From Nanoarchaeota archaeon (lineage in GTDB: Archaea > EX4484-52 > LFW-46), in NCBI GenBank assembly GCA_018897155.1, contig JAHILE010000043.1, forward strand, positions 1 to 33,702: a DNA stretch of 33,702 bases, written 5' to 3'. Below, in pieces: positions 158-32,988 of the stretch. The first letter of the stretch is position 1. Every line of letters begins with the position of its first letter. Under the pieces are notes generated by a model, which ran no database searches, was not told the origin of the DNA, and was given only the letters and a program-made list of their open reading frames with translations. The position numbers were made by a program, and so were the translations under genes.

Positions 158-247
158 AATTGAATATAACTCGGCAGTTTCACGTAGTCCGCGAAAGCGG
201 ATTAGGGTGAGCCAGAGCGAACCGTGAAACTGCATGTTAAGCTCCCG
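158..247 (+). repeat. attC-like element 1
   Basis: The outer box ATTGAATATAAC (159-170) is followed by 3 nt and arm GCAGTTTCACG (174-184). An apical hairpin TCCGC/GCGGA follows (188-192/197-201), then a hairpin with tandem G-A pairs, GGTGAGC/GCGAACC (206-212/217-223, sharing its last C with the next arm). The complementary arm is CGTGAAACTGC (223-233), and GTTAAGC begins at 236 after 2 nt. The 11-bp stem is perfect. The layout matches elements 2-4 although their arm sequences differ. Confidence 0.75.
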
Positions 248-705
248 CTCAACAATAGAACCAAAGCGGTCGAGCACCGCAGCGAAGCGAGGAGCGGAGA
301 AGTCGAGGTCGGCGGGCGCGTCGTCGTTAGCAGTTATAACCCGGTATTTCTACTCTTTGCATACTAAGTTTATTTTGGAGTTTGACTGCGATCTGATTTG
401 CTCTTTCTTTATCTTTAGCAAGAATATGCACCGCCAAATTAACGGGGTTTGCATACTGATTGAAGCTTATCGAAATGCCATACGGATCTTTTTCGTCTGA
501 CTTCTTCAGGTCTGCACTTGTATTGTTAGGTCCAAAATGTTTCTCAAGATACGAGGGACATGTACCCAACACCTCTTCCAAATTTGTTTTAGGATCAATT
601 ATGCCATCTATTAAAATACCATCCATTTTCATATTACCACCTACTACGAGTAGTCTACGAAGGTTTATATTTCTTAGTCGCCCGCCGACCTCGATTGAGT
701 TTAAC
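236..705. mobile_element. Integron-like cassette 1
   Basis: The unit runs from the GTTAAGCTC box closing element 1 to the GAGTTTAAC box opening element 2. These ends are complementary at 8 of 9 positions, the ninth being a G-T wobble. Just inside lie 16-bp perfect inverted repeats TCGAGGTCGGCGGGCG (303-318) and CGCCCGCCGACCTCGA (679-694). The right copy abuts the outer box. About 55 nt of hairpin-forming sequence, including GCGGT/ACCGC, lies between the left box and left repeat. The cargo is one small minus-strand gene. Confidence 0.65.
327..632 (-). CDS. Hypothetical protein, 101 aa (cassette cargo)
   Basis: The frame is open further upstream, to 863, but that would read through attC-like element 2. 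The start chosen is ATG 630-632 (MKMDGIL...), because AGGTGGT, a good ribosome-binding site, lies a few bases upstream and an AAATATAAA TATA-like box lies at 664-672, about 35 nt before it. The product is soluble, with no signal peptide or membrane segment. It has a charged middle and a C-terminal stretch containing NPVNLAVHIL that should form beta strand and helix. I do not recognise the family. It is the only gene in cassette 1. Confidence 0.6.
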   Translation of the reverse strand: MKMDGILIDGIIDPKTNLEEVLGTCPSYLEKHFGPNNTSADLKKSDEKDPYGISISFNQYANPVNLAVHILAKDKERANQIAVKLQNKLSMQRVEIPGYNC

Positions 706-792
706 TCGGCGGGTTTACGAAGTTTCTGCAAAGCAGAAATTTGGGAGGAGTGAGCGAAACGAACGGAACCGTAAAGCCGCTTGTTATATTCC
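692..792 (+). repeat. attC-like element 2
   Basis: The outer box is ATTGAGTTTAAC (694-705). Arm GCGGGTTTACG (709-719) pairs with CGTAAAGCCGC (770-780) with one G-G mismatch. The apical hairpin is TTTCTGC/GCAGAAA (723-729/733-739). A second hairpin, GTGAG with loop CGAAA and CGAAC (750-764), contains tandem G-A pairs. The right box is GTTATATTCC (783-792). Compared with element 1, paired positions change together. Confidence 0.75.
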
Positions 793-1754
793 TTTTGGCG
801 AAGCCAAAAGTTCGAGGCGAAGCCGAGAAAGTTGAGTTCTCGCGATAATATTGCCGAAGGCACATGAATTAGGGAAGGGGGCGTTGCAATATCATCGACT
901 GCATCAGCGGTGCTTCATATGATTTATTCCTGTATTCTATAAGCATCCCGCGCAGCATATAACCAAAATAGAAGCGTTGGAATGAACGCCAGCGGAGTTG
1001 TAAAAAACAGATAGAAATCAATTACCCATATTGTGAATCCTAACATCATGAATGCTATTCCGCGTTTAATTTTTCCAATCGCGATGTGCCCGAAGCCTGG
1101 AACGCCCATGGACAACAAAAACAGAAACCTTTTTGCCCAGGTACTATTTTCCTCTTGCAGTGATTTATAGATTAAATATCCCGATACTAAAATCACGCCT
1201 AGCCACATAAGTATGAGCGATAAACTAGTAGCGAGTGTAAAGATAAGAGGCCAGCCTGCCTGCGACAATGCATATGCATAGATAAAATAGTCATATCGGG
1301 GGCTTGAAGGAAAAAATATGGTATAACCGGCATAAACGCAAAGCGCGATAATCCAATTAAAGATTCTTAATTTCTTAGCAATGCCCCAGTTTTTGTACGC
1401 CCAGAAATAACCTAATAAAACTACGGCAAGCTCGCTAAAAAGCCAAACGATTCCCCTCAGATCCATTCCGCTAAGTATCCATACGAAATCGCCCCACACA
1501 TGACCGTCGTTGGTCAAAAGCTCGCTTGCACCAACCTCAAGAGCCCATCCGACGGGATTTCCCGGGATAAATTCTGCTCCGCCGAATAGAGGGTAAAAAA
1601 CGAGGAATAATAGGAGATATCTTGTCAAGTCCCAAAAAAATAATTTCTTTTTACTTTCCATATTAAATCACTTGTGTAATTATGGGTTATTACTATTTTT
1701 ATTGTTCAATAAACTTCATCCCCCTTCCCGTGCGAGAACTCAATTGAATATAAC
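783..1754. mobile_element. Integron-like cassette 2
   Basis: The unit runs from GTTATATTC (783-791) to GAATATAAC (1746-1754), a perfect 9-bp inverse complement. Cassette-specific inverted repeats follow inside: TTGAGTTCTCGC (832-843) with GCGAGAACTCAA (1732-1743), and GGGAAGGGGG (872-881) with CCCCCTTCCC (1720-1729). Two hairpins lie between the left box and left repeat: CTTTTGGC/GCCAAAAG (792-810) and CGAGGCGAAGCCGAG (813-827). The latter 15-mer recurs exactly at 4014-4028 and 7849-7863. The cargo is one membrane-protein gene on the minus strand. Confidence 0.65.
924..1661 (-). CDS. Polytopic membrane protein (cassette cargo)
   Basis: The 245-aa product is hydrophobic almost throughout, with roughly six or seven predicted membrane segments. 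One starts near residue 12, others lie around 70-90, 100-118 and 135-165, and two sit in the last 65 residues. The C-terminal part has the pattern PGFGHIAIGKIKRGI...DAYR, typical of small membrane proteins related to TM2/DUF5683-type domains (PGxGxxYxGxxxRG). The specific function is unknown. The start is ATG 1661; GTGAT a few bases upstream could serve as ribosome-binding site, and an AT-rich TATA-like stretch lies near 1696-1706. It is the sole gene between elements 2 and 3 and points left, toward cassette 1's gene. Confidence 0.7.
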   Translation of the reverse strand: MESKKKLFFWDLTRYLLLFLVFYPLFGGAEFIPGNPVGWALEVGASELLTNDGHVWGDFVWILSGMDLRGIVWLFSELAVVLLGYFWAYKNWGIAKKLRIFNWIIALCVYAGYTIFFPSSPRYDYFIYAYALSQAGWPLIFTLATSLSLILMWLGVILVSGYLIYKSLQEENSTWAKRFLFLLSMGVPGFGHIAIGKIKRGIAFMMLGFTIWVIDFYLFFTTPLAFIPTLLFWLYAARDAYRIQE

Positions 1755-1843
1755 TTTGGCGTTAAGAGTAGTTTTGGCGTAGCCAAAATTAGGATGGAGA
1801 AATCTGCAAGATTTCGGAATCTCTTAATGCCTTGTTATATTCC
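1743..1843 (+). repeat. attC-like element 3
   Basis: The outer box is ATTGAATATAAC (1743-1754). Arm GGCGTTAAGAG (1758-1768) pairs with CTCTTAATGCC (1821-1831) through one G-T wobble. Hairpins are TTTTGGC/GCCAAAA (1772-1778/1782-1788) and GAAATC/GATTTC (1799-1804/1810-1815). The second stands on a symmetric GGA/GGA internal loop and a GAT/ATC stem. The right box is GTTATATTCC (1834-1843). Confidence 0.8.
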
Positions 1844-1944
1844 CCGAAGGGTTGATTTTTAGTGCAATGGTGCCGAAGGCAAAAAATCAAAGTCGCAGGG
1901 TAATTTTTATATATTTCGTTTAGGGGTTGCCGCCGTCTTTTTTG

Positions 1945-1967
1945 CTTCTTTTTTGCTAAAAAAGAAG
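1945..1967. repeat. Poly-T/poly-A hairpin in cassette 3 leader
   Basis: CTTCTTTTTT (1945-1954), loop GCT, AAAAAAGAAG (1958-1967) form a perfect 10-bp stem. Similar hairpins occur at 4316-4340 and 4362-4382 in the corresponding place of cassette 4. The T-runs could terminate archaeal transcription entering from the left, insulating the cassette promoter. Confidence 0.5.
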
Positions 1968-1998
1968 ATTGGGGGGGTTCCGTTGAAAAATAGATGAA

Positions 1999-2009
1999 TT
2001 TATATAAAT
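1999..2009 (+). promoter_or_regulatory. TATA box of the GmrSD-like gene
   Basis: TTTATATAAAT is centred about 40 nt before ATG 2044, a normal archaeal promoter position giving a short leader. Confidence 0.55.
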
Positions 2010-2043
2010 AACTATATACATCATTATATAGCTATTTTGAGCA

Positions 2044-3840
2044 ATGATAAAAATGATGGATAATAGATATACTAAAAGATTGTATGGTGTGTTTGATAAA
2101 GAGAATCAAAGACAAATACAGGTTCCAGTGTTTCAAAGAGCTTATCTTTGGGGATTAAACAATTGGGAAAAATTATTAGATGATGTAATTGGAGAAGAAG
2201 AAACCCAATTTATGGGAGTATTAATTGGTGTGGGAGAAGGGGATACTAGCTATCCAATATATACTCTTATTGATGGCCAGCAGAGACTTACTACTCTATC
2301 TTTCTTTATACTCGGTTTATATAAAAGGGTTACTGAAATCTGCGAAAATGAGCAGGACAAGGAATTAATAGTATTAAAAGACGATATTGAAAAGAGATTA
2401 ACAATAACAAAAAAAGAGAAAATATTAACAAGATTGATATTGTCTAAACAAAACTCCAACAAAGAGGACTATGAATATTTGGCTCATTTGATATTGATGC
2501 CAAACAAAAGCTATGATAAGCCTGCTAATTTTGGAAATAGGAGAATAAGTTATGGATTTAATTTCTTTTCTGAGTATTGTCAAAAGGAAGTAAAATCTCT
2601 TGAAGATGCAAAAAAGTTATATGAAAAACTCAAAAATCTAACTTTTGTAGAACTTGAAGAAGATGATTTCTCTAACGCATTTAAATTATTTGAGGTTTTG
2701 AATTATAGAGGTCTTTCGTTATCTGCTATGGATATTATAAGAAATGCTATTTTTAAAGAACTACATTCCCAAAAAAAGGATTTAATTGAATACGATAAAA
2801 TGTTTAACAGAATAATGAACAATTTATTAGATTCTACATTTCAGACAAGATTTTTAAGACAATTTTACATGGCATTTAAAGGAGATGAAACTATTACTGT
2901 TAAAGGAGTATCAAAAGCAACCATATCAAAAGTCATTATGGTTTATGAAAAATTAGCAAAAAGAAATACAATTTTTCTACTTGAAGAACTTGAAGAAAAA
3001 TCAGAGATATACAAAGAATTTATCGTTTTTGAAAATGGGAATAAATTTAGCGAATTGTACGAAAATTTAATGAATTTGGGAATATCCCCAGCATATACTC
3101 TTTTGCTTTATTCCAAATCAAAAAAAGTATTTAATGATGATAACTATGAAAAATTATTACTTCTCCTAAGAAACTTCTTTGTAAGAAGAAATATTCTTGA
3201 TATACCTCCTACTAGAGAATTAGATAATTTGTTTATGAAACTTGTTGAGACAATAGAAGAAAAAATAAAAGAGGATACGCATGAAGAAATATTATTAGAG
3301 ATTATAAAAGAAAAATTGTTCACTAGAATAGAATTAAAAAATGATGATTTATTCAAAGAAAAATTATCGGGCGATATTTATGAGATTAATACTGAAATGA
3401 CAAGATATCTTCTTTGTTTAGTAGAAGAAAATTTACGAAGTAAAGATAGCAGAATTAATCTTTGGGAGAAAAATAAATCAAATAAACTTTTATTTACAAT
3501 TGAGCATATCTTACCTCAAAAGGGATTAGGAAAAAACAACGAATGGGTAAAGGAATTAGGAGCGAATGATGAGAAAGAGGCAATAAAAATAAGGGATGAA
3601 TTTTGCCATAAATTAGGCAATCTTACTCTTACAACAAGCAATCCTAATTTATCTGATTTTAACTTTGTAGAAAAGAAAAATAGGGTTGATAGAAACAAAA
3701 AGCATGTTGGATACAATAACGGATTCAAAATAAACGAGTATGTTATGAAACAACAAAAATGGAATGTTAATCAAATAAAAGAAAGAACAGATTTTTTAAT
3801 AAATGAAATTATAGGGATATTAGAAATAAATAAAAAATAA
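2044..3840 (+). CDS. GmrSD-like restriction enzyme (DUF262-DUF1524)
   Basis: The product is a 598-aa fused GmrS/GmrD-type protein. The N-terminal DUF262 (ParB/Srx-like NTPase fold) shows QVPVFQRAYLW at 26-36 and DGQQRLTTL at 77-85. A long helical middle follows. The C-terminal DUF1524 His-Me/HNH-type nuclease shows IEHILPQ near 485-491 and HKLGNLTL near 522-529. Known relatives are Type IV enzymes that cut modified, typically glucosylated hydroxymethylcytosine, phage DNA using NTP; related fusions include other phage-defence proteins. Both motif sets look intact. It is the only gene in cassette 3, has its own TATA box, and its AT-rich codon use is unlike the neighbouring chromosome. The substrate is inference from the family; several in-frame Met codons leave the start open by a few residues. 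Confidence 0.88.
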   Translation: MIKMMDNRYTKRLYGVFDKENQRQIQVPVFQRAYLWGLNNWEKLLDDVIGEEETQFMGVLIGVGEGDTSYPIYTLIDGQQRLTTLSFFILGLYKRVTEICENEQDKELIVLKDDIEKRLTITKKEKILTRLILSKQNSNKEDYEYLAHLILMPNKSYDKPANFGNRRISYGFNFFSEYCQKEVKSLEDAKKLYEKLKNLTFVELEEDDFSNAFKLFEVLNYRGLSLSAMDIIRNAIFKELHSQKKDLIEYDKMFNRIMNNLLDSTFQTRFLRQFYMAFKGDETITVKGVSKATISKVIMVYEKLAKRNTIFLLEELEEKSEIYKEFIVFENGNKFSELYENLMNLGISPAYTLLLYSKSKKVFNDDNYEKLLLLLRNFFVRRNILDIPPTRELDNLFMKLVETIEEKIKEDTHEEILLEIIKEKLFTRIELKNDDLFKEKLSGDIYEINTEMTRYLLCLVEENLRSKDSRINLWEKNKSNKLLFTIEHILPQKGLGKNNEWVKELGANDEKEAIKIRDEFCHKLGNLTLTTSNPNLSDFNFVEKKNRVDRNKKHVGYNNGFKINEYVMKQQKWNVNQIKERTDFLINEIIGILEINKK

Positions 3841-3876
3841 GATGCCCTTTAATTACTCTAAATTCTGCACAGCAAA

Positions 3877-3898
3877 CTATCTGTTCGCAGGACTTAGG
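3877..3898. repeat. CTATCTGT-hairpin copy 1
   Basis: CTATCTGTTC, loop GCA, GGACTTAGG is the first of four related short hairpins. The others are at 4031-4051, 7865-7886 and 7920-7942. All lie downstream of cassette cargo, and all resemble CTATCTGTCC-GAA-GGACTAAGG. Confidence 0.5.
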
Positions 3899-3913
3899 AA
3901 CCCCCTATAAATT

Positions 3914-4028
3914 GGAAAAATTTGGGAGAGCAAAGCGAACCTCTTAACCTTTGTTATAGAAAGTGCAAAGCATTTTCCCGTCCCCCGTTGGTCGGTTAAG
4001 AGAAGTTTTTCTTCGAGGCGAAGCCGAG
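3914..4028. repeat. Circularly permuted attC-like element, copy 1
   Basis: The features of an attC-like element appear here with the halves exchanged. TTTGGGAGAGC..GCGAAC leads to CTCTTAACC (3941-3949), TTT and GTTATAG. Then come about 35 nt with hairpin GAAAGTGC/GCATTTTC, the box CGTTGGTC, GGTTAAGAG (3994-4002), AAG, and hairpin CGAGGCGAAGCCGAG. The two 9-nt arms are perfectly complementary. An outer GGAAAAA/TTTTTCT pairing encloses them. A second copy lies at 7757-7863. Confidence 0.6.
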
Positions 4029-4082
4029 ACAATCTGTGTGAAGCACTAAGGCGGCAACCCCGTTTTAAAAATTTACCCTGCG

Positions 4083-4181
4083 ATTGGATATAACATCGGA
4101 ATTTAACGAAGTCGCCGAAGGCGATTTGGGTGGAGAAACCTGCAAGGTTTCGGAACCGTTAAATTTCCTGTTAGTTTCTCC
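4083..4181 (+). repeat. attC-like element 4
   Basis: The outer box is ATTGGATATAAC (4083-4094). Arm GGAATTTAACG (4098-4108) pairs with CGTTAAATTTCC (4157-4168) with one bulged base. Hairpins are TCGCC/GGCGA (4112-4116/4120-4124) and GAAACC/GGTTTC (4135-4140/4146-4151), the second above a GGA/GGA loop as in element 3. The right box is GTTAGTTTC (4170-4178). Confidence 0.8.
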
Positions 4182-4410
4182 TGTTAAGGATTGATTTTTA
4201 GTGCAACGATGCTCGAAGAGCAAAAAATCAAAGTTTTTGAGAATGCCGTTCGTATTGTTTCTGAAATAATATTTTTTGGGTGGGCTATGTATTAGAGAGA
4301 CGCGCGCTTTTTTTGTTTCTTTTTTTCCTAAAAAAAGAAAATGGGGATTTCCGTCTTTTTGCTTCTTTTTTCTAAAAAGAAGTCGGGAGTTTTGATAAAA
4401 TTAATCAAAA

Positions 4411-4419
4411 GATTTATAT
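4411..4419 (+). promoter_or_regulatory. TATA box of the R-M operon
   Basis: GATTTATAT, about 50 nt before ATG 4465, is the only clear TATA-like box upstream of the operon. Transcription should start near 4440. Confidence 0.5.
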
Positions 4420-4425
4420 ATCTCT

Positions 4426-4443
4426 ACAAATAATCTTATTTGT
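4426..4443. promoter_or_regulatory. Candidate operator of the R-M operon
   Basis: ACAAATAATCTTATTTGT is a perfect inverted repeat with 8-bp arms and a 2-bp centre. It lies just downstream of the TATA box, where the transcription start is expected. A small ribbon-helix-helix-like protein is the first gene of the operon, so autoregulation is a natural reading. Confidence 0.5.
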
Positions 4444-4464
4444 GTTTATTTATGAGGTTAAAAA

Positions 4465-4620
4465 ATGGGTGAAGAAGAAAATAGAAAAAATGTAACAATT
4501 CATATTAATTCTAAAATTTATGAAGAATATTCAGAATTCTGTAAAAAGGAAGGAATAATTTTATCAAGACAAATTGAAAAATTTATAATGAATGAATTAA
4601 AAAAGGTGGATAAAAAATGA
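4465..4620 (+). CDS. Small ribbon-helix-helix-like protein, possible R-M controller
   Basis: The 51-residue product has a strand-like segment NVTIHINSKIYEEYSEFC, then a turn and a helix with LSRQIEKFIMNEL. This is the layout of CopG/Arc-type ribbon-helix-helix DNA-binding proteins. GAGGT (4454-4458) is a strong ribosome-binding site 6 nt before the ATG. The stop overlaps the methyltransferase start as ATGA (4617-4620), implying translational coupling. A palindrome at 4426-4443 in the promoter is a plausible binding site. In many R-M systems a small controller protein regulates expression; that role here is inferred from position only. An antitoxin-like protein is the alternative. Confidence 0.65.
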   Translation: MGEEENRKNVTIHINSKIYEEYSEFCKKEGIILSRQIEKFIMNELKKVDKK

Positions 4621-5780
4621 CTTTGAACTACATAGGGAGTAAATTATCTCTTTTGGATTTCATTCATTTTATTGTAGATAAAGAAATAAAAGAAAATATC
4701 TTTGTTGTTGGAGATTTGTTTGCAGGAACTGGAATTGTAGGGCAAAGTTTCAAAAGAAAGGGATACAAAATTGTTGCTAATGACATACAATATTATAGTT
4801 TTGTTTTAAATAAAAAATTTCTAACAAACAACGATTTTGTAAAATTTGAGGGATTGGTAGAGGAGATACCTAATTTACTAAATTATGAGAAAAAAGAAAG
4901 AATATTACAAGTTTTAAATTATTTGAATAATTTAAAGGAAAGAAAAAAGGGATTTATCTTTGATAATTATTCTCTTGCTGGAACAAAAGGAAAAGAATTT
5001 GAAAGAATGTATTTTTCAGATGAAAATGCTTTAAAGATTGATACAATTAGATTAAAAATTGAAGATTGGTTTAGAAATAAAAAAATAAGCGAAAGAGAAT
5101 ATTTTTATTTATTAGGAACTTTAATTGAAGCATCTGATAAGGTGGCAAATACAGCTTCGGTTTATGGTGCATTTCTAAAAAAAATAAAAAAATCTGCACA
5201 AAAGGAACTTCAATTATATTATAATGAAATTATTTTTGGTGATAAAGAGAATATAGTTTTTAATGAGGATATCTTAAAAATTTTAAATAAAGAAAAGATT
5301 GATTTATTGTATTTAGACCCCCCATATAATGCGAGACAATATTGTTCTAATTATCACATGTTAGAAACTATATCAAAATATGATAATCCAAATATCTCTG
5401 GGAAAACTGGATTAAGAGACTACCAAAAACAAAAGTCAAAATTTTGCAGTAGAAATAATGTTAAGGAAGAATTTGAAAAAATAGTAAAAACAACTAATGC
5501 AAAATATATTCTATTAAGCTATAATAATGAAGGTTTAATGTCAATAAAAGATGTTCAAGAGATACTTTCTTTAAGAGGAGAACCAAAAACATTTATACTC
5601 AAATATAAAAGATTTAAAGCAGACAAAACAGAAAATAGAAATCATAAATCCGACTTTACCTATGAATATTTACATTTTGTTAAATGTGATGAAAATATGG
5701 ATGAAATTAGAAATAAAGAATTTCCTATAATTGAGATTGATTCTAATATGTTGAATAACCAAACTAAATTAACTAATTAA
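4617..5780 (+). CDS. DNA adenine methyltransferase, D12 (Dam-like) class
   Basis: The 387-aa protein transfers methyl groups from S-adenosylmethionine to adenine N6 in DNA, as judged by family. YIGSK (5-9) matches the N-terminal motif of D12-class enzymes. DLFAGTG (33-39) is the cofactor-binding motif I. DPPY (about 234-237) is catalytic motif IV. The length exceeds Dam (about 280 aa) and leaves room for a larger target-recognition region between motifs I and IV. The start overlaps the upstream regulator by 4 nt. A second methyltransferase follows one base after the stop, so the two are co-translated. Two methylases beside one nuclease suggests an asymmetric recognition sequence with one enzyme per strand; this is inference. 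Confidence 0.88.
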   Translation: MTLNYIGSKLSLLDFIHFIVDKEIKENIFVVGDLFAGTGIVGQSFKRKGYKIVANDIQYYSFVLNKKFLTNNDFVKFEGLVEEIPNLLNYEKKERILQVLNYLNNLKERKKGFIFDNYSLAGTKGKEFERMYFSDENALKIDTIRLKIEDWFRNKKISEREYFYLLGTLIEASDKVANTASVYGAFLKKIKKSAQKELQLYYNEIIFGDKENIVFNEDILKILNKEKIDLLYLDPPYNARQYCSNYHMLETISKYDNPNISGKTGLRDYQKQKSKFCSRNNVKEEFEKIVKTTNAKYILLSYNNEGLMSIKDVQEILSLRGEPKTFILKYKRFKADKTENRNHKSDFTYEYLHFVKCDENMDEIRNKEFPIIEIDSNMLNNQTKLTN

Positions 5781-5781
5781 A

Positions 5782-6525
5782 ATGGTAGCATATAACGACT
5801 TAAATTATAACGATTGGAAAAAATATTTGGGAGATATTACGACTGACGCAATTTGGATAACTCCTAAGATTAATGGAAAGTTTGAAATTCCAAAAAGAGA
5901 CTTTTTGCCTAAAAATAGCAATACTTTTCATGGGTTGTTTATTCCTGAAATACCTTATCAATTTATTAGAAGATTTACAAAAAAAGGAGAAATTGTTTGG
6001 GATTGTTTTGGGGGTAGTGGAACAACAAAAAAAGTTTCTGATTTATTGGATAGAAAATGTATAATTAATGATATTTCTCCCCAAGAAGATTTTATTATTA
6101 AAGCAGATTCAACAACATTTAATCCTAATTCTAAAATTCATTTAATTTTTATGCACCCACCTTATCATAATATAATCAAATATTCAAATAAAAATGAAGA
6201 TGGCTCAAATTATAATTCAATTAATGAATTCTTAAATTGGTTTGAAAACGTTGTTAAAAATGTTACCCAATATTTAGAAGAAAATAGATTTTTAATTTTG
6301 GTGTGTGGAAACATTTATCAAAATGGAGAAGAACACACCTTAGGAGTTTGGTGTAAAGACATTATATTAAAATATGGATTTAAATGTAAATCCCATGTGA
6401 TAAAAGATTATGGAGAAACTAAAGGAGGAAGTAAAAATTATAACCTTAATTATTATAGGGCATTAAGAGGTAATTTTAATTCTTTTTACGGAGATAATAT
6501 TTTTATATTACAAAAGATAAATTAA
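5782..6525 (+). CDS. Second DNA methyltransferase (N6-A or N4-C)
   Basis: The 247-aa protein has FGGSGTT (76-82), the S-adenosylmethionine motif I in the FxGxGTT form, followed later by HPPY (125-128) as catalytic motif IV. The segment HGLFIPEIPYQFIRRFTKKGEI before motif I is like the stretch seen before motif I in amino-methyltransferases of the N4/N6 group. The order motif I then motif IV differs from classical beta-class enzymes. HPPY in place of DPPY or SPPY leaves the methylated base (adenine or cytosine) undecided. The ATG follows the previous stop after one base. Its 3' end overlaps the convergent nuclease gene by 4 bp. Confidence 0.8.
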   Translation: MVAYNDLNYNDWKKYLGDITTDAIWITPKINGKFEIPKRDFLPKNSNTFHGLFIPEIPYQFIRRFTKKGEIVWDCFGGSGTTKKVSDLLDRKCIINDISPQEDFIIKADSTTFNPNSKIHLIFMHPPYHNIIKYSNKNEDGSNYNSINEFLNWFENVVKNVTQYLEENRFLILVCGNIYQNGEEHTLGVWCKDIILKYGFKCKSHVIKDYGETKGGSKNYNLNYYRALRGNFNSFYGDNIFILQKIN

Positions 6526-7670
6526 TTATAATTAATCTCAGAAAACTTTAATTCTTCTCCAACTACTTCATATTCAATAAATTTTAAAGGTAAGCAATTT
6601 TGATTTTTATTATTAAATTGTTTAAATGATTCTATTATTTGCAAATATTTTTCAGAATCTTTATTGTCAAATTTTTTAGCAATTAATACTGGCTGTATTG
6701 TGCTTATTCTATTAGAGATATAATATTGTTGTAACCAATCCACATATCTTTGAAGTTGAATAACATTTAATAAAGATATTTGAACTGCTTTTAATTCAAT
6801 AGGCAAAATTAATCTTTCATCATTTCTCTTTTGTAATGATAAAGCAATATCTATTCTCTGCATTCCAACACCACAAGAAACTTCATTTCCAATCCATTCT
6901 AACTTATTGTCTTGTATAAGTAGATTTTTTAATTCATCACTTATATCCACATTTTTACAAATATATGCTTGCAGATGACTTTCAAAAGCTTTATCCTCTT
7001 TGTATTTTTGTACAAGTCTTGGTAAAACATTAATTTCCTCTTTTCTTCCAGAATAGTTATGTTTAGTCTCCGACGGAATTATTTTTTGATTATCTACATT
7101 ATAAGAAAAGTTTTGAGAATTAATTTTTTGTCTATTATTTTTATCTCTTATCAATTTAAATAATCTTTCTGTTTCATAAATCGTAATCATTGTATTTCCA
7201 CGATTACCTTTTAATTTTCTATAAATTAAACTCCATAACATTTGATTGGGAGATTGAATAAACTTTATTTCGTCTAATGCTTCCCATTCTGTAACCCCTT
7301 GTGCATAAACTTCATAAGGTTCTAATAAAACTCTAAAAGTTAATGACTTTTGTAATTCATCTTTTAAAAATTGTCCATTGTCATTATTATCCAAAAAACC
7401 ATTAGACTTAGCTTTGAATATCCCATAAAATTTTCCTTCGCCAACTTCCCTACTTTGTTGTAAGTAAAAGATTACATAATCTCCAATTCTTACTCTACTT
7501 AAATCTGCAATCATGCTAATAAGTAAATTTTCTCTTGTTGGATTAAGTTTTGATTTTGAATTATTATTAAAATCTAAGATGTAATCTTTTGCCCCTGTGC
7601 CTGCAAATAAATATTCTAAATGATACTTAAAAGTATTTTTATCAACAATGAAAACATGTGTATTTACCAT
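6522..7670 (-). CDS. Restriction endonuclease with PUA/EVE-like and PD-(D/E)XK domains
   Basis: The 382-aa protein starts with NTHVFIVDKNTFKYHLEYLFAGTG...RIGDYVIFYLQQ...GKFYGIFKA, which has the look of a PUA/EVE-type beta-barrel. The C-terminal part has RIDIALSL followed by LPIELKA, the D..ExK signature of PD-(D/E)XK nucleases. It is convergent with, and overlaps by 4 bp, the second methyltransferase, so it is the likely restriction partner. The frame is open to a GTG at 7691. I place the start at ATG 7668-7670 because ATTTATAAAT (7694-7703) lies about 28 nt upstream, giving a nearly leaderless message. The recognition sequence and EVE assignment are inference. Confidence 0.75.
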   Translation of the reverse strand: MVNTHVFIVDKNTFKYHLEYLFAGTGAKDYILDFNNNSKSKLNPTRENLLISMIADLSRVRIGDYVIFYLQQSREVGEGKFYGIFKAKSNGFLDNNDNGQFLKDELQKSLTFRVLLEPYEVYAQGVTEWEALDEIKFIQSPNQMLWSLIYRKLKGNRGNTMITIYETERLFKLIRDKNNRQKINSQNFSYNVDNQKIIPSETKHNYSGRKEEINVLPRLVQKYKEDKAFESHLQAYICKNVDISDELKNLLIQDNKLEWIGNEVSCGVGMQRIDIALSLQKRNDERLILPIELKAVQISLLNVIQLQRYVDWLQQYYISNRISTIQPVLIAKKFDNKDSEKYLQIIESFKQFNNKNQNCLPLKFIEYEVVGEELKFSEINYN

Positions 7671-7693
7671 ATTAATATTAAAGATATTCACAC

Positions 7694-7703
7694 ATTTATA
7701 AAT
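7694..7703 (-). promoter_or_regulatory. TATA box of the restriction endonuclease gene
   Basis: ATTTATAAAT is centred about 28 nt upstream of ATG 7670 on the minus strand. It supports the shorter start and a leaderless message. Confidence 0.55.
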
Positions 7704-7756
7704 ATGTTTGTTTTTTGAGAGGTCTAAAACATATTTTCAAAACTCCCGAATAAAAT

Positions 7757-7863
7757 CAGAAAAATTTGGGCGAAGCCTTTTATCCTTTGTTAGAAGAAAT
7801 TTTAATTTCTTTGTGGTTTTCGTTGGTCGGATAAAAGAAGTTTTTCTGCGAGGCGAAGCCGAG
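7757..7863. repeat. Circularly permuted attC-like element, copy 2
   Basis: Outer stem CAGAAAAA (7757-7764) pairs with TTTTTCTG (7841-7848). Inner arms CTTTTATCC (7777-7785) and GGATAAAAG (7829-7837) pair perfectly. Between them are TTTGTTA, a hairpin AGAAAT/ATTTCT and the conserved box CGTTGGTC. Hairpin CGAGGCGAAGCCGAG (7849-7863) follows. Relative to the copy at 3914-4028 the arm sequences differ, yet both pair internally. Two CTATCTGT hairpins follow at 7865-7886 and 7920-7942. Confidence 0.6.
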
Positions 7864-8023
7864 ACTATCTGTCCGAAGGACTAAGGAAATCCCCTATTAA
7901 TTCAAAAACAAAGTTTTTGCTATCTGTCCTGAAAGGACTAAGCGCGTCTCTCCTATTGGGTGGGAGAAAAAATATTATTTCCTATCTCTTTGTTTTAACT
8001 TTATCTTGTAGGCATTCTCAAAA

Positions 8024-8107
8024 ATTGAAACTAACTAGATATTCTACGGAGTAAATTCCGCTTTTTGCGCCTTTTTGTAATGAAAAGCGGAATAAAGTTG
8101 GTATAAC
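8024..8107. repeat. Array end: outer box and attI-like or degenerate attC region
   Basis: ATTGAAACTAAC (8024-8035) closes cassette 4. Beyond it the regular spacing is lost. Nineteen bases precede ATTCCGCTTTT (8055-8065), which pairs perfectly with AAAAGCGGAAT (8083-8093); AAA and GTTGGTATAAC (8097-8107) follow. On the minus strand the junction reads GAATATCTAGTTAGTTTC. This places a box-like GAATATC beside GTTAGTTTC, as in an integron attI simple site. This could be the array's insertion site or a decayed attC. Confidence 0.4.
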
Positions 8108-8250
8108 GCTCGCCTATTGAGTATTATGCTGAGTTTTGTTGGTTTTTTATTGCAATATGAAGTATTATGCAATAAAAAAGCTTGAAAATTGGACAGTCAG
8201 TACAGTGAATTTTCATGATTTTTCGCGCCCTTTTGTGGAGTTATACCAAC
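8097..8250. repeat. Inverted-repeat element overlapping the 3' end of xerA
   Basis: GTTGGTATAAC (8097-8107) and GTTATACCAAC (8240-8250) are perfect 11-bp inverted repeats. Between them are hairpins TTTTTTATTGCA/TGCAATAAAAAA (8143-8154/8168-8179) and TGAAAATT/AATTTTCA (8183-8190/8208-8215). The arrangement resembles a large attC-like or MITE-like element. It contains the last codons of xerA, and its first hairpin could terminate that gene. Confidence 0.5.
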
Positions 8251-9066
8251 TTCCGGACTATGCAAAGTGTCTAGTGGGCTCTGAATATTTTTTATTAGCG
8301 CTGTAGAAACATGTGTATATAGCTCGGTTGTCCTTACGTCAGAATGGCCAAGCAGCTTTTGAATTATGTGAATATCCGTTCCGTTCTCAAGCAGATGCGT
8401 AGCATAACTATGGCGCAGTGTATGTGGATGGACATTTTTGATTATTCCGGCAATGCTTGCGGCTTTATCCACTATCTTTTCGATTGTAGCTTCAGTAAGC
8501 CGCCCTCCTCTTGCAGAATCAAATACATAGGGGTTCTCATCATTTCTCAGGAGAATGTATGATTCAAGCCGCTTTGATAAAGTGAAAGGCAGCGATACTA
8601 CACGGTCTTTGTTGCCCTTTCCCTGCCTTACAAAAAGTATGCCTTCTTCGAACCGAATATCATCTTTTTTTAGTTTTGCGGCTTCTGATACTCTCAGGCC
8701 GCAGCCATAAACCGTTTCAATTATTAGCTTATGCTTTGTGTTTGAAATCGCAGTTATTATTCTTTGCACTTCATTCTTTGTAAGCACTTCAGGAACTCTT
8801 TTCGGGCGCTTCATAAAAGTTATGGCCATCTCCCTTCCGAGCACATTTCTGTAAAAGAACTTGACCGCACTTATCCTCAAATTCACTGTTCTCGGGTCCA
8901 TTTTTTCAGACAGACCGGCAAAATATTGCCGAATTTCGTCGTGCTCCGCCTGCGCGCCCATTCTCTTAAGAAAACATGATGTATGGAACATATACGACTT
9001 TACGGTCTTTGCGCTGAACCCTCTCGACTTAAGTTCGATTTCCAATTTGCCAAGTAATATATTCAT
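8197..9066 (-). CDS. xerA: Tyrosine recombinase, XerA type
   Basis: The 289-aa site-specific recombinase should act on dif-like sites by the tyrosine mechanism. The N-terminal SAM-like DNA-binding domain spans about 1-90. The catalytic residues are all present: R125 (GCGLRVSE), K150 (RQGKGNKD), H215 and R218 (HTLRHSYATH), H241 (LLGHSDV), Y250 (ELYTHV). The extra segment characteristic of integron integrases near the HxxR motif is absent, so sequence alone says XerA, not IntI. TTATATAT (9091-9099) lies about 29 nt before the ATG, suggesting a leaderless message. The last 20 or so residues after SPLDTL look like a read-through tail encoded inside an inverted-repeat element. It is next to an attC-like array whose outer boxes resemble an archaeal dif half-site. 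Chromosome dimer resolution is the default role, and cassette recombination is a hypothesis. Confidence 0.9.
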   Translation of the reverse strand: MNILLGKLEIELKSRGFSAKTVKSYMFHTSCFLKRMGAQAEHDEIRQYFAGLSEKMDPRTVNLRISAVKFFYRNVLGREMAITFMKRPKRVPEVLTKNEVQRIITAISNTKHKLIIETVYGCGLRVSEAAKLKKDDIRFEEGILFVRQGKGNKDRVVSLPFTLSKRLESYILLRNDENPYVFDSARGGRLTEATIEKIVDKAASIAGIIKNVHPHTLRHSYATHLLENGTDIHIIQKLLGHSDVRTTELYTHVSTALIKNIQSPLDTLHSPEVGITPQKGAKNHENSLY

Positions 9067-26523: not shown

Positions 26524-27915
26524 TTACCTTTGAAATTTATTTAACGCAAGCTCTTTTATAGTTTCGTATGTCTCGAATTCCGGAGCAAGCGAATCATATT
26601 TCGCGAATTTGCCGAAAGAAAGCCTTTTCGCGCCAGGCGTAAAATCCCCGCCATGAACAGGATACATAAAAATCATATCTTTACTTTGAAAAAAAGCATC
26701 CGCTTTTTTGAGCCAATCCCTTTGCTGCTTTTTATCCAGCATTTGGCTAAAAACATCCATAGGCGAATTATTAGCCCAGCCGAAATCAATAAAAACTAAT
26801 CGCAGTATCTTCCCAAACTTTTCTTCAACTTTAGAATTTATCTTATCCCATCTTTCTTCGTCGAATTTTCCGCTGTATATTTCTTCCGGTGTCGGAGTGA
26901 TCGTGACAAAATCGAGCTTTGGCGCTTGCCGATTGTAATAGATTACCGGATCAGCCCATGTTCCGACATAAATGTTTTTTCCTTTTGATCTTCCGTATTC
27001 ATGAATTGCATCTATGATCTTACCTGCAGCATCATAGGAATCTTTAACAGCTTGATGATTTTCATTATTATTGACCATGGCCTTAAGACTTTCCGCTTGG
27101 ATATAAAGCAAATCGATAAAAATTGCATCTGCGCCTGAATCTATCTGTTTTTTAGCGCGATTTACAAGAAGCTCTTGAAAAGCCGGAATCGTCAGATCCG
27201 GATAATATCCCTCGGCTTTTTGCCAATCATATTTCTCGCCAAGCTTCAACAGATGATTGGTCAGCGCGAAATATTCCTGAAATCCTTCCTTATTCAAAAG
27301 TTTCCCTCTAAGTGACGGATAGTCTTTGCATATATCTTCCGGACATATATAGGTTATATTCCATTTTTGCGGATCAAACGCCATTCCCCAAGTATCATTA
27401 GCATTGATCACAGTGTTTGCTATGGGATCTACTTCAATTCTTCCCAGAGCTTCTGAAGGAATCGCGCCTACAAATATGACTCCTGGCATTTCTTTTTTAA
27501 TCTCAGGTATTGTCTTTCTGAGCTCTTCGTATGAGTAGCCCAATTCTCTGACCAACTCGGGCACATTTTTAGTTGTAGTTTTTGCAAACTCGGCAATACG
27601 ATCAAGCAATTCAGAAGGCATATTATCCGGAGAATCCGGAGCGGGTATTGTCCAAGTATAAAAACCTAAAAAAATTAAATCTGTTTTGGTTTGTTTTAGC
27701 ATTTTGACAGTATTCTTAAGACTCCTGCCGCCGCCGGATTCTCTGTCAGTCACTTTTTCGTACACCGTAGCGACTTTAACCCGAGAAAGATCATTCTGCG
27801 GGCCGGCATATGGTATTTTCGACAAATCTATTTGTTCCAATTCATTTTTTGGAGCGATCAGCAATATCGCAATAACCAATACGACTCCTAATAAAAGCAA
27901 GATTTTTTTGTTCAT
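26524..27915 (-). CDS. Anchored TIM-barrel protein A, probable glycoside hydrolase
   Basis: The 463-aa protein starts with an MNKKILLLLGVVLVIAILLIA membrane anchor or signal. A domain with the strand-helix rhythm of a TIM barrel follows, including KTDLIFLGFYTWTIP, GVIFVGAIP, GADAIFIDLLYIQ, KNIYVGTWADP and LRLVFIDFGW. Aspartates at strand ends (IFIDLL, VFIDFG) are candidate catalytic residues. I do not recognise the exact family. It is a paralogue of the protein at 31625-32983 and sits among GH13-type genes, so an extracellular glycan role is likely. The frame reaches a GTG at 27924 overlapping the upstream stop; ATG 27915 gives the MNKKIL start shared by all cluster members. Confidence 0.75.
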   Translation of the reverse strand: MNKKILLLLGVVLVIAILLIAPKNELEQIDLSKIPYAGPQNDLSRVKVATVYEKVTDRESGGGRSLKNTVKMLKQTKTDLIFLGFYTWTIPAPDSPDNMPSELLDRIAEFAKTTTKNVPELVRELGYSYEELRKTIPEIKKEMPGVIFVGAIPSEALGRIEVDPIANTVINANDTWGMAFDPQKWNITYICPEDICKDYPSLRGKLLNKEGFQEYFALTNHLLKLGEKYDWQKAEGYYPDLTIPAFQELLVNRAKKQIDSGADAIFIDLLYIQAESLKAMVNNNENHQAVKDSYDAAGKIIDAIHEYGRSKGKNIYVGTWADPVIYYNRQAPKLDFVTITPTPEEIYSGKFDEERWDKINSKVEEKFGKILRLVFIDFGWANNSPMDVFSQMLDKKQQRDWLKKADAFFQSKDMIFMYPVHGGDFTPGAKRLSFGKFAKYDSLAPEFETYETIKELALNKFQR

Positions 27916-27920
27916 AAACT

Positions 27921-29705
27921 TCACTTAACTGTTAATATCCTTGAGCCATAAGCAGGCACAGTTATTTTAAAATTAGCAGAATCACTGACAGTAAAAATTT
28001 CTCCGTTCAGTTCGTCTTTTAGCCGCGTTCCGTTTGGAAATGGAATGTCCAAAACGCTTTCGACTTGTTTTCCGTTGAAATTAATTACAACGATTACCGT
28101 TTCATTTTCATAAGCCCTTGAATACGCATAAATATTGTCTCCGGATTTCCAGACGTTTTTGATGTCGCCGTATTTAAGAGCGCTGCTGGAATTGCGGATA
28201 GAAAATACTTTTTTATAAAAATCTCTTAAACCATAATCTCCATTAATCCAATTAACTTTGGGGTCAGCATTTCCAGTTCTAAACCAATCATTCGTCGCTC
28301 CAATTTCCTGCCCGGCTTGTATGAACGGAATTCCCGGAAGAGTGGAAATCATAACCAAAAAATTTTTATTCAATGTCGAATTATCCTTATTCAGTCTTGA
28401 CTGATCGTGAGACTCCAAAACAAGTAAAGGCGTTTTGCCCAATGTCGCGATACCTTGCGCAAGTTTATCTATGAGTTGCTGAGAGGTTATTGTGTTTGCG
28501 GCAATACCGGGCATAAGGCGCGGAAGATTAGCATATTCCAATTCCGCCGGCACTTTTTTGGACAAGCCAGGTTCGGATATAAACGCAGCATCGGGCTTAA
28601 TCTTTTTCACAGCGCCTATCGCGCTTATTAGTAATTTTTCCGAAGAGTGGTCGCCGGAGAACACCATCGAATTATAATTATTAGACGGCGCGTCAATTCT
28701 CCATCCGTCAATACCATATTCTTTTACATAGTATTCCGCAATTTGAGTAAAATATTTGATTACATTGGCATTTCCCAAGTCCACTGCCGGACCCCATCCA
28801 GCTATTGGGAAACTCCGCACCATAATTCTATCTCCGCTGATTTCTCCGCCAAATTCATAAAGATCTTTACCCCCTGCCACCGACGACTTATGCTTGCCAG
28901 CAAAAACAAAATTTCTACCATCCAGTGTTGTGTACTCCAATTTCCAATTCATTTCTTTTGCTTTTTCTGCGAGTTCGGTGCTGGAAAAACTATAAGTCCA
29001 ATTATTATTATAAATTATACTATTTGGAGGCGTGCAGCAGGTCACGAGATCAAACAAAATTTTCATATCGTTTTTATGCACTATATCAATCAATTCTTTG
29101 AGATCATCGGGCGAGCCATACGCCGGATCAATTTTATAATAATCATTAATCAAATATATGAGCGTTGTCTCCTGCCTCTTCATTGCTCTTTCCCAAATAG
29201 GCATCAAATATATTGTCTTTACGCCCAATTCCTTAAGGTGTGGAATTTGTTCAGTTATCTCCTTGAAAGAATGGTTTGGGTAATAATAGGGGTGAGTTTC
29301 GTAAATCGCTCCCTCGTTAAGCCATGTTTTGCCAATTGGCGCGGGACTGGATTTTGGCGAAGGCGCAGGCAGGATTATGGGTGATGGTGAAATAGGCGTC
29401 TTTGCAGGAATAACTGCCTTATTCAAAGCCGTTTGAGCCGTATCTAGTAAATCTCCGGCTTTTTTGTAATCTTTATTATCAAACGCCTGCTTCGCTTCCA
29501 GCCCCAACCCCTCTACTTCCGAAACATCAACGCCCTGCGCTTTGGCCGCATCATACTGTGATTTTAATGACTGAAATTTCTGCTGCAATTCTTCTTTGGT
29601 TATTTCCGGATTCTGAGCGGCTCTTTTTTGTTTTATAGCAATAGCAGCTATCGCTAAAATGGCGATTATAATTATTGCCAACAGTACTAAGATTTTTTTA
29701 TTCAT
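27921..29705 (-). CDS. Anchored GH13 alpha-amylase-family protein A
   Basis: The 594-aa protein has an N-terminal membrane anchor, a short helical repeat segment (about 35-97), a Pro/Ser linker and a GH13 (beta/alpha)8 barrel. Region II is GWRIDA with Arg336 and nucleophile Asp338. Region III is ISEPG with acid/base Glu378, and region IV is ESHD with His433 and Asp434. The catalytic triad is therefore complete. Region I, normally DxVxNH, reads FDLVTCCTPP near 219-226, so the usual Asn-His are replaced. A C-terminal all-beta domain ends PAYGSRILTVK. It probably acts outside the cell on alpha-glucans. The C-terminal 100 residues closely match the partial gene at 32989-33702. Confidence 0.88.
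   Translation of the reverse strand: MNKKILVLLAIIIIAILAIAAIAIKQKRAAQNPEITKEELQQKFQSLKSQYDAAKAQGVDVSEVEGLGLEAKQAFDNKDYKKAGDLLDTAQTALNKAVIPAKTPISPSPIILPAPSPKSSPAPIGKTWLNEGAIYETHPYYYPNHSFKEITEQIPHLKELGVKTIYLMPIWERAMKRQETTLIYLINDYYKIDPAYGSPDDLKELIDIVHKNDMKILFDLVTCCTPPNSIIYNNNWTYSFSSTELAEKAKEMNWKLEYTTLDGRNFVFAGKHKSSVAGGKDLYEFGGEISGDRIMVRSFPIAGWGPAVDLGNANVIKYFTQIAEYYVKEYGIDGWRIDAPSNNYNSMVFSGDHSSEKLLISAIGAVKKIKPDAAFISEPGLSKKVPAELEYANLPRLMPGIAANTITSQQLIDKLAQGIATLGKTPLLVLESHDQSRLNKDNSTLNKNFLVMISTLPGIPFIQAGQEIGATNDWFRTGNADPKVNWINGDYGLRDFYKKVFSIRNSSSALKYGDIKNVWKSGDNIYAYSRAYENETVIVVINFNGKQVESVLDIPFPNGTRLKDELNGEIFTVSDSANFKITVPAYGSRILTVK
29488..29705 (-). repeat. Near-identical 218-bp duplication, copy 1
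   Basis: It encodes the anchor and helical segment at the N-terminus of the GH13 protein. It differs from copy 2 (31388-31605) at only a few positions, for example CCGGATTCTG against CCGAGTTTTG, while the rest of the two genes is strongly diverged. This points to recent duplication or gene conversion of the 5' end. Confidence 0.85.
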
Positions 29706-29739
29706 ATTGATCAGTTTTTATTTGTTTAAATAATTAAAA

Positions 29740-31605
29740 TTAATTGACTATTAGTATCCTTGAGCCGTAAGCGGGCATATGAACTTTCAATTCGCTGGAA
29801 TTGCCTGCAAATGTTTCGTTGTATAACAAGTCGTAAACGGTTATGGCATCTCCGCCGAATTTTGTTTTGACAATGGCGTCAACGGACTTATCGCCTGCAT
29901 TTACGATTACCGTTGCCGACTCATTCTCGCTCCATCTGTTGTACGCTATGAGCTTCTTTACTTTCGGAGAAACCAAGGCGTCTTCGATATTATCCGATTG
30001 CAAAGAAGGCAGGGTTTTTTTAATCATTATTAGTTTTTTGTACTGGTTTTTTAAAGAATCCGCGTTATATCCAAATAATTTTTCTCCGACTTCCTCGGCA
30101 AGAATAATTTGATATTCTCCTATCCAAATAATATTTCCCGGAGCGGTGATAGCTAAAGTAAGATACGCGTTCGAGACATCCGGCTTAAGGAGATCCACAA
30201 ATTTATTCGCCTCAACCCAAGTATTAACAAACTTGGCGGTTTTTGTGTATTTTTCCTCTTGCTGCGTCAGCTTAAATGCCTTGACATAATTTTCAGAATA
30301 TGAATATCCTGTGCCTCCGTAAACCAGCTTTAACAAACTTCTGAAATTATAGCCCTGCACCCAATCAAAATATTTTCCGATTGTCCTGTCCACTCTCGGA
30401 TCCACGTACCATCCGGAAATATCTCCTTTGCAGGTTTTCATAATTAAATCATCGGGCATATCCCTTGTGCTTTTCCATGTTATTTCAGAAGCAAAGGCAA
30501 GATTCTTTTCCGTTTCCTTTCCCAATTGCTCTATTTTTTCTCGCATGGCGTTTGCAAGAGGTTCTGGGCTGTAATATCCGTCAACAGGCGTCAAGCATTC
30601 AAAGCCTTTTGCATATCCGGTTTTATCGCATAGATCCTTTATGTAAGAATTGCAATATGCCATCATTGCCGAATCGAGATATATTCCATCCACGCCCCAT
30701 TTTTTGACCCAGTGAGGAAGCACTGTTTCTGTTACGTATTTAATCAACTCGGGGTTATCCTTATTCACGACATACCCGTATTGGGCGAGTGGCCATGGCC
30801 AGAATATCGCCGGCTCTCTATAAATGCTTTTTAGCATCCACTCGGGATGATTATCATAGACAAAAGTGCCCGGCGCCGTAACCGTGATTTGTAATTGGGC
30901 AATGACTTTCATGCCAAGCGAATGAGCTGTTTGCACCATGTGCAAGAATTCTTCTTCGGTTCCCCGTTCAGAGTCGGGTTTAAGATAGTCCTTAACAATG
31001 AATGTATCCTTGATTTCCATGTTCTCAATGCCTTTTTCCGTTTTCACCGGTATTGTCCGCCCTGCCTCCGGCCATATCGCATCATAAGGAGTCCAGATGA
31101 AAATGGTATTTGCTCCGGTTTCTTTTAATTCCGGCAATGCCCCCTCAACTTCTTTCCATGAAGGCTTTACAGTTCCCGCTTTTGGCATGTTCATCTGGGG
31201 AATGCCGGCTATTACAATGGTTTCATTTAATGTTTCCGGCGCCGGGGTTGCAGGCGTGGAAGTAGTCGCGGGTGGCGTTGAGGGTGCAGGAATAGGAGAT
31301 GTTTTTGAGGTTTTTATTTCCTCTAACGCGCCTTTTGCTTTGTCCAAAAGTTCGTTCGCTTTTCCGTAATCTCCATTATCATAATTCTGCTTCGCTTCCA
31401 GCCCCAACCCCTCTACTTCCGAAACATCAACGCCCTGCGCTTTGGCCGCATCATACTGTGATTTTAATGACTGAAATTTCTGCTGCAATTCTTCTTTGGT
31501 TATTTCCGAGTTTTGAGCGGCTCTTTTTTGTTTTATAGCAATAGCAGCTATCGCTAAAATGGCGATTATAATTATTGCCAACAATACTAAGATTTTTTTA
31601 TTCAT
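29740..31605 (-). CDS. Anchored GH13-like protein B
   Basis: The 621-aa protein has the same membrane anchor and helical segment as protein A, a Thr/Pro linker, then a (beta/alpha)8 barrel related to GH13. NTIFIWTPYDAIWPEAG covers the early strands. GVDGIYLDSAMM carries a candidate nucleophile Asp, and LAFASEITWK a candidate acid/base Glu. The C-terminal beta domain ends MPAYGSRILIVN. The regions around the catalytic residues differ from classical amylases (no GxRxD arginine), so activity or specificity may differ. It is separated from protein A by 34 bp and from the next gene by 19 bp, consistent with one transcript. Confidence 0.75.
   Translation of the reverse strand: MNKKILVLLAIIIIAILAIAAIAIKQKRAAQNSEITKEELQQKFQSLKSQYDAAKAQGVDVSEVEGLGLEAKQNYDNGDYGKANELLDKAKGALEEIKTSKTSPIPAPSTPPATTSTPATPAPETLNETIVIAGIPQMNMPKAGTVKPSWKEVEGALPELKETGANTIFIWTPYDAIWPEAGRTIPVKTEKGIENMEIKDTFIVKDYLKPDSERGTEEEFLHMVQTAHSLGMKVIAQLQITVTAPGTFVYDNHPEWMLKSIYREPAIFWPWPLAQYGYVVNKDNPELIKYVTETVLPHWVKKWGVDGIYLDSAMMAYCNSYIKDLCDKTGYAKGFECLTPVDGYYSPEPLANAMREKIEQLGKETEKNLAFASEITWKSTRDMPDDLIMKTCKGDISGWYVDPRVDRTIGKYFDWVQGYNFRSLLKLVYGGTGYSYSENYVKAFKLTQQEEKYTKTAKFVNTWVEANKFVDLLKPDVSNAYLTLAITAPGNIIWIGEYQIILAEEVGEKLFGYNADSLKNQYKKLIMIKKTLPSLQSDNIEDALVSPKVKKLIAYNRWSENESATVIVNAGDKSVDAIVKTKFGGDAITVYDLLYNETFAGNSSELKVHMPAYGSRILIVN
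31388..31605 (-). repeat. Near-identical 218-bp duplication, copy 2
   Basis: It covers the start of the gene at 29740-31605 and matches 29488-29705 almost base for base. Both copies begin at the ATG and end at the same codon in the helical segment. Confidence 0.85.
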
Positions 31606-31624
31606 AATTTTTACCTTTTAATTG

Positions 31625-32983: not shown

Positions 32984-32988
32984 ATATT

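Follow-up and report, generated by a model that had tools for sequence, protein, structure and literature searches.

The 33,702-nucleotide (nt) contig JAHILE010000043.1 of a Nanoarchaeota archaeon (assembly GCA_018897155.1), hereafter the window, carries an array of gene cassettes bounded by sites that resemble the attC recombination sites of integrons, and two of these cassettes end in a further element in which the parts of an attC site stand in circularly permuted order. With about even confidence, we read this permuted element as a conserved end component of the cassettes of an integron-like system of DPANN archaea driven by a XerA-type recombinase, in which it would act as a folded accessory site that is not cleaved. 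Copy B lies at the end of cassette 3 (positions 3914 to 4012, + strand; 115.5 bits with covariance model R1) and copy A at the end of cassette 4 (7758 to 7847, + strand; 88.1 bits), R1 having been built from nine copies that include both, and the arms are paired at 9/9 positions in each. A preliminary description of this DNA had placed two permuted copies here, which was borne out once their ends were trimmed; the stretches it gave contain the element but also include a separate hairpin (CGAGGCGAAGCCGAG).

Whereas the attC-like sites of the window read TAAC, arm, AAG, hairpin 1, TTTGGG, hairpin 2, arm′ and GTTA, copies A and B both read 3′ strand of hairpin 1 (hp1), TTTGGG, hp2, arm′, TTTGTTA, a small hairpin (hp3), CGTTGGTC, arm, AAG and 5′ strand of hp1. 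The element is a circularly permuted version of the attC three-way junction. It shares the arm stem and the two hairpins with attC, but its open end is at hairpin 1 and its core-box end is closed, so that its halves are swapped and the core-box sides lie opposite each other across the small hairpin. It further resembles attC in its core boxes, its predicted bottom-strand fold and its position at cassette boundaries, lacks the R′ box, and occurs in addition to attC, not as a replacement for it. The arms of the window copies, CTCTTAACC/GGTTAAGAG and CTTTTATCC/GGATAAAAG, pair perfectly yet differ in sequence, as had been observed before. The outer stem AGAAAAA/TTTTTCT, which had been said to close both copies, does so at 7758 but not at 3914, where the copy starts with GGAAAAA and the first pair is G·T. 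Two further hairpins read from the sequence, hp4 and hp5, follow on the + strand, at 4013 to 4050 after copy B (CGAGGCGAAGCCGAG and AATCTGTGTGAAGCACTAAGG) and at 7848 to 7886 after copy A (repeat family D7, 89% identity to copy B over 66 nt), and many other copies have similar hairpins 3′ of them. A small hairpin, CTATCTGTCC-GAA-GGACTAAGG, also recurs around the permuted elements, at window positions 3876, 4030, 7865 and 7919.

That this pairing is selected, as had been proposed from the two window copies, is supported by covariation in two sets of copies. For the first, 78 R1 matches less six duplicate loci and five weak matches (L068:643, L052:245, L051, L012 and L013) left 67, from which a cut copy (L043) and a partial one (L027) were omitted, and the resulting 65 copies were aligned with MAFFT using no structure. 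The two stems are paired in 98.0% of cells, against 93.1% after shuffling and 51–66% in slid controls, and covariation is 0.141 against 0.054, with 0/500 shuffles as high. Arm cells are paired in 98.6%, in keeping with the paired L arms of attC, and the pairs found include CTTTTATCC/GGATAAAAG (24 copies), CTCTTAACC/GGTTAAGAG (22), CTTTTACCC/GGGTAAAAG (4) and CTCTTATCG/CGATAAGAG (2). In three copies both strands of the outer stem have changed, and RNAalifold further includes hairpin 3, in which compensatory changes occur. The second set holds 42 divergent copies found by the model alone, on 40 stretches taken from the survey of 371 genomes described below, with the weakest-scoring matches left out; the count refers to MAFFT alignment A7 (42/43 rows, L155 being too long), and the automatic arm finder mis-called some rows. 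Here the arm cells are paired in 94.8% against 70.6%, with 8/8 arm pairing in 30/42 rows, and covariation is 0.586 against 0.176 (0/500 shuffles), values to be read in the light of a selection by a pairing-containing model, which biases the set toward pairing, and of shuffles that preserve column make-up. An absence of further copies, or arms that no longer pair, had been named in advance as grounds for abandoning the idea; copies proved to be many and their arms paired, and an origin by chance or artefact was rejected on the covariation and the number of copies.

The relation to attC goes beyond partial similarity, because ordinary DPANN attC sites are recognised by a profile made from the 65 copies after the two halves of each had been returned to the attC order. 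With the permuted elements masked, this rotated profile gave 10 matches at the stricter limit of E ≤ 1e-3 and 22 at E ≤ 0.01; each of the 22 is on the expected strand, and 13 overlap attCs from an independent script. Without rotation the matches at these limits numbered 3 and 7, and reversed sequence gave 0 at both. The two core boxes have had different fates. The R″ side, GTTA, is retained in 61/65 copies as in attC (the RRRY part of GTTRRRY being unscored), whereas R′ (RYYYAAC) is lost, 0/65 copies having AAC in the 16 nt that precede the 3′ arm, and the attC order R″-L″-L′-R′ with boxes at the open end is replaced by swapped halves in all aligned copies. With the recombinase placed to the right, the + strand of the window corresponds to the bacterial bottom strand, TATAAC to R′ and GTTA to R″. 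In bacteria, according to the portions of PMC2727003 available to us, attC recombines as a folded bottom strand whose R′ box is cut between C and A, and the R″-L″ side is required and uncut. Judged by its sequence, the permuted element looks able to bind but unable to be cut; because the cleavage box is lost, it probably aids the enzyme without itself being a substrate for cleavage.

The orientation of the element is tied to that of the recombination sites. An automatic attC pattern made 2/32 false calls (a mirror call in L068 and one inside an open reading frame (ORF) in L074), and a model, R2, built from 22 training sites, was used instead. R2 matched 64 times in a set of 57 sources and 12 times in 40 others, the training sites being counted among them, and 76/76 matches share the strand of the permuted element, which at least 4 of the 64 and at least 2 of the 12 themselves overlap. 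In 33/110 copies the next 600 nt downstream include the start of an attC, at a median distance of 79 nt (10th–90th percentile, 58–151 nt), and a Xer-type recombinase lies 3′ of the element, mostly nearby, in 19/19 loci showing one in the fetched stretch, three of these matches being partial or distant. The nearest upstream ORF, on the other hand, is on the same strand in 29 cases and on the opposite strand in 31. Because its strand is tied to attC and Xer and is divided almost evenly with respect to genes, the element tracks recombination polarity and not transcription; for the same reason, a promoter, terminator or untranslated region of the adjoining gene is disfavoured. The earlier suggestion of a second functional site gains support from the conservation of the element, its constant strand and its nearly constant distance from attC. 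No correlation between permuted arms and the arms of the adjoining attC was apparent by eye, in an uncounted comparison. Around the 110 copies, read on the element strand, GNA triloops account for 112/205 loops and the mirror type TNC for 2, against 67 and 32 of 553 in controls. GNA triloops form very stable DNA minihairpins.

Further copies in archaeal genomes, for which a covariance search had been suggested, are widespread in DPANN. BLAST of copy B against 61 genomes detected 9 with a match, the long matches being those in G000, G004, G006, G007, G020 and G033, and identity between copies is 82–92% in genomes from several families within the order. R1 matched 6/34 genomes of the host phylum and 69/371 genomes of a second DPANN phylum, that of a Pacearchaeota genome. 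In this second survey, 112 genomes have attC and 40 have both, attC being present in 40/69 genomes with the element against 72/302 without it (odds ratio 4.4, p 1.5e-7). A DNA pattern found 57 stretches in named genome contigs, 54 with a strong R1 match, one with a weak match (L051) and two with none (L049, L065). By label, the 54 comprise 47 DPANN (Pace-, Woese-, Nano-, Aenigm- and Nanohalarchaeota and "DPANN"), 4 unspecified archaea, 1 Methanolliviera and 2 bacterial, the last being contigs of about 4 kb (L043, L060) that may be misbinned. Another permuted-like element, seen by eye in L123 (1100 to 1160, − strand), went unreported by R1, and the element counts are accordingly lower bounds. 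Searches of viral contigs, plasmids and phages, collections that probably hold little DPANN material, gave no match, and a viral, plasmid or phage element was set aside on this basis. A genome-wide repeat of the repetitive extragenic palindromic (REP) type was likewise rejected, since 7 whole genomes contain just four occurrences of the hp5 hairpin pattern, on element-bearing contigs.

These features suggest how an accessory site of this kind might work. On excision, a cassette would form a circle whose folding strand carried the permuted element some 80 nt to the 5′ side of the attC cleavage box. It would there fold as single-stranded DNA and, bound by XerA through its arms and R″ (GTTA) while remaining uncut, would serve as an accessory or assembly site that seats the recombinase on the correct strand and favours insertion of the circle. 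A more specific and distinctly more tentative version holds that DPANN cassettes are bipartite, each pairing a cleavable attC with a permuted, non-cleavable copy about 80 nt away on the same strand, and that XerA, lacking the IntI-specific domain, uses both for strand recognition and insertion.

Several observations weigh against an accessory role. Bacterial attC reportedly needs no accessory factor (PMC2727003, in the portions available to us). The DNA pattern that supplied most of the 65 copies prescribed some of the 3′ half, and constancy there is partly a product of data selection. The fixed orientation could reflect simple descent of the cassette end, which may explain part of it. A copy went undetected in 2/4 window cassettes and, under strict filters, in 72/112 attC-positive genomes. 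The predicted single-stranded DNA fold is also weak, with z scores of −0.5 to −2.2 in six copies (−0.53 and −1.31 for the + strands of the window copies) against −4.2 for the ordinary site attC4, and the minimum-energy fold differs from the proposed one in 3/6 (L034, L050 and L068). As RNA, z on the element strand is −1.9 to 0, little better than DNA. A thermodynamic proof of the fold therefore failed, and because the predictions for DNA and RNA are both weak, the fold would require protein or be transient.

An RNA, whether a small RNA or a structured untranslated region carried on cassettes, for example a transcript end or processing signal, had also been raised in the preliminary description. 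It would account for a conserved multi-helix fold with G·U-type pairs and for T-rich stretches 3′ of some copies, and the predicted RNA fold of copy B, like the centroid of copy A, approximates the proposed one. We nevertheless think it unlikely, although worth keeping in view, given an orientation that follows recombination polarity and not genes, loops of the GNA triloop type with just 10 GNRA tetraloops, the weak RNA fold scores and the lack of a family match for the element in Rfam. The element might instead be a functionless relic, tandem attCs around a tiny cassette having lost their outer halves and the remainder hitch-hiking on cassette ends. Such remnants had been proposed too, and as an origin the idea stands as possible: the sequence order is compatible, ordinary attCs also have small hairpins after GTTA, and other hairpins and inverted ends travel with cassettes as well. 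As an account of the present state it is improbable, because neutral decay would disrupt pairs, whereas compensatory arm changes keep them intact over tens of genomes and in divergent copies, and because R″ is retained while R′ is always lost.

Copies that share 82–92% identity across several families, and a cassette in G006 that holds the element alone, would fit a mobile unit or an insertion target landing at cassette ends, similar to REP sequences or miniature inverted-repeat transposable elements or separately mobilised by the recombinase. The single orientation and nearly single distance to attC speak against it, as does the confinement of copies in the host genome to the array contig, together with their absence from the viral, plasmid and phage collections, and we give it a low probability. 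Lower still, to the point of being hard to credit, is the possibility that XerA cuts the permuted element, for example at GTTA, giving two active sites per cassette. GTTA is nearly invariant and adjoins a conserved arm stem, but 65/65 copies lack the equivalent of the attC cleavage box, and no junctions at the GTTA of the element were seen, although no systematic search for them was made.

Turning from the permuted element to the array itself, ordinary attC-like sites lie on the + strand at 165 to 241 (39.4 bits with R2), 700 to 788 (62.1 bits), 1749 to 1839 (83.2 bits) and, between cassettes 3 and 4, 4089 to 4175 (attC4; 72.2 bits), all four belonging to the R2 training set. They have inverted core boxes and foldable arms at a density of at least two per 4 kb; all four were folded, and fold statistics were obtained for one. 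Cassette 3 carries a GmrSD/DUF262-type restriction protein (2044 to 3840, + strand; PF03235, PF07510), and cassette 4 a D12 N6-adenine methyltransferase (4617 to 5780, + strand; PF02086), an N6/N4 DNA methylase (5782 to 6525, + strand; PF01555) and a protein on the − strand (6522 to 7691) that weakly matches PRK00809, which we take to denote an EVE-like domain, and NucS. Anti-phage models matched 7/8 cassette-type proteins tested. The gene-less cassette of G006 lies on contig 1, where attCs at 533 to 617 and 865 to 957 flank a permuted element at 691 to 788. In the window (241 to 8032), the two ends of each cassette are imperfect inverted repeats, for example TCGAGGTCGGCGGGCG and TTGAGTTCTCGC. 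Across 23 cassettes, own ends match as inverted repeats with a score of 26.3 against 19.7 with the ends of other cassettes (0/10,000 permutations), cassette-specifically in most, and the attC stem would therefore extend outwards in the excised circle. A repeated hairpin, TTTTTGCTTCTTTTTT...AAAAAAGAAG, occurs at 1939 to 1975 and 4310 to 4390, and a weak Rfam wcaG match at 4312 to 4396, under the gathering score, is probably due to chance. Elsewhere in the window, at 26524 to 33555, related large ORFs with repeated starts (families D1–D5) stand in a row.

The putative array integrase is a XerA-type tyrosine recombinase (8197 to 9066, − strand) that scores 234.7 bits with NF040815 (archaeal XerA), above the cut-off of 220, and 205.1 with TIGR02249 (integron integrase), below the cut-off of 265. 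The region of patch III between two matched parts has 10 residues, against about 52 in Vibrio IntI (2a3v), so that the IntI-specific domain is absent. A relative with 63% identity adjoins the permuted element of L034, and similar pairs of recombinase and attC array were noted in 18 other permuted-element loci. Two degraded relatives with stops occur in the same genome, G000, at C46:32170-32996 and C19:8432-9238 (68–76% and 46% identical), the former near an attC-like match (L171, 8817 to 8895). A TAAC junction adjoining the recombinase gene (8032 to 8035, + strand) is, from its sequence, the putative attI-side boundary of cassette 4. Of the parts that make up an integron, the window holds an attC cassette array and a recombinase, together with a candidate attI. 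An inverted repeat, AAGTTGGTATAAC/GTTATACCAACTT (8095 to 8107 and 8240 to 8252), spans the 3′ end of the recombinase gene and is perhaps part of attI. The permuted element was rejected as a platform attI, because it also recurs at cassettes distant from the recombinase.

Tandem attC cassettes have been described in archaea, including DPANN (Ghaly et al. 2022, PMC9668308), but the integrases of those archaeal integrons are IntI proteins with the IntI-specific domain, unlike the XerA type found here, and the sections of that paper available to us describe no permuted site. XerA is otherwise an archaeal chromosome-dimer resolvase, whereas the window's recombinase gene sits at an attC array. Literature searches on archaeal integrons, XerA with cassettes, circular permutation and accessory sites (including PMC8371274, PMC8946536 and PMC8138268) found no such site described in the text they reached, subscription journals and preprints falling mostly outside their coverage, which agrees with the earlier statement that it has no described counterpart. 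The permuted site in DPANN cassettes thus appears to be undescribed, and the XerA-run integron-like system itself may be so.

From a biological point of view, these data touch on how integron-like cassettes can be run by a Xer-type enzyme that lacks the IntI domain and on how cassettes are built and given direction, and a conserved second folded site supplies a concrete, testable part. If the bipartite scheme is true, a job that bacteria do within one attC and with the IntI-specific domain would here involve two sites, and DPANN cassettes would provide the first known case of recombination controlled by a circularly permuted version of the recombination site itself. The covariance model of the element offers a handle for locating such arrays. 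Many cassette genes are of restriction or anti-phage type, and the system is therefore probably important to gene exchange and defence among uncultured DPANN archaea.

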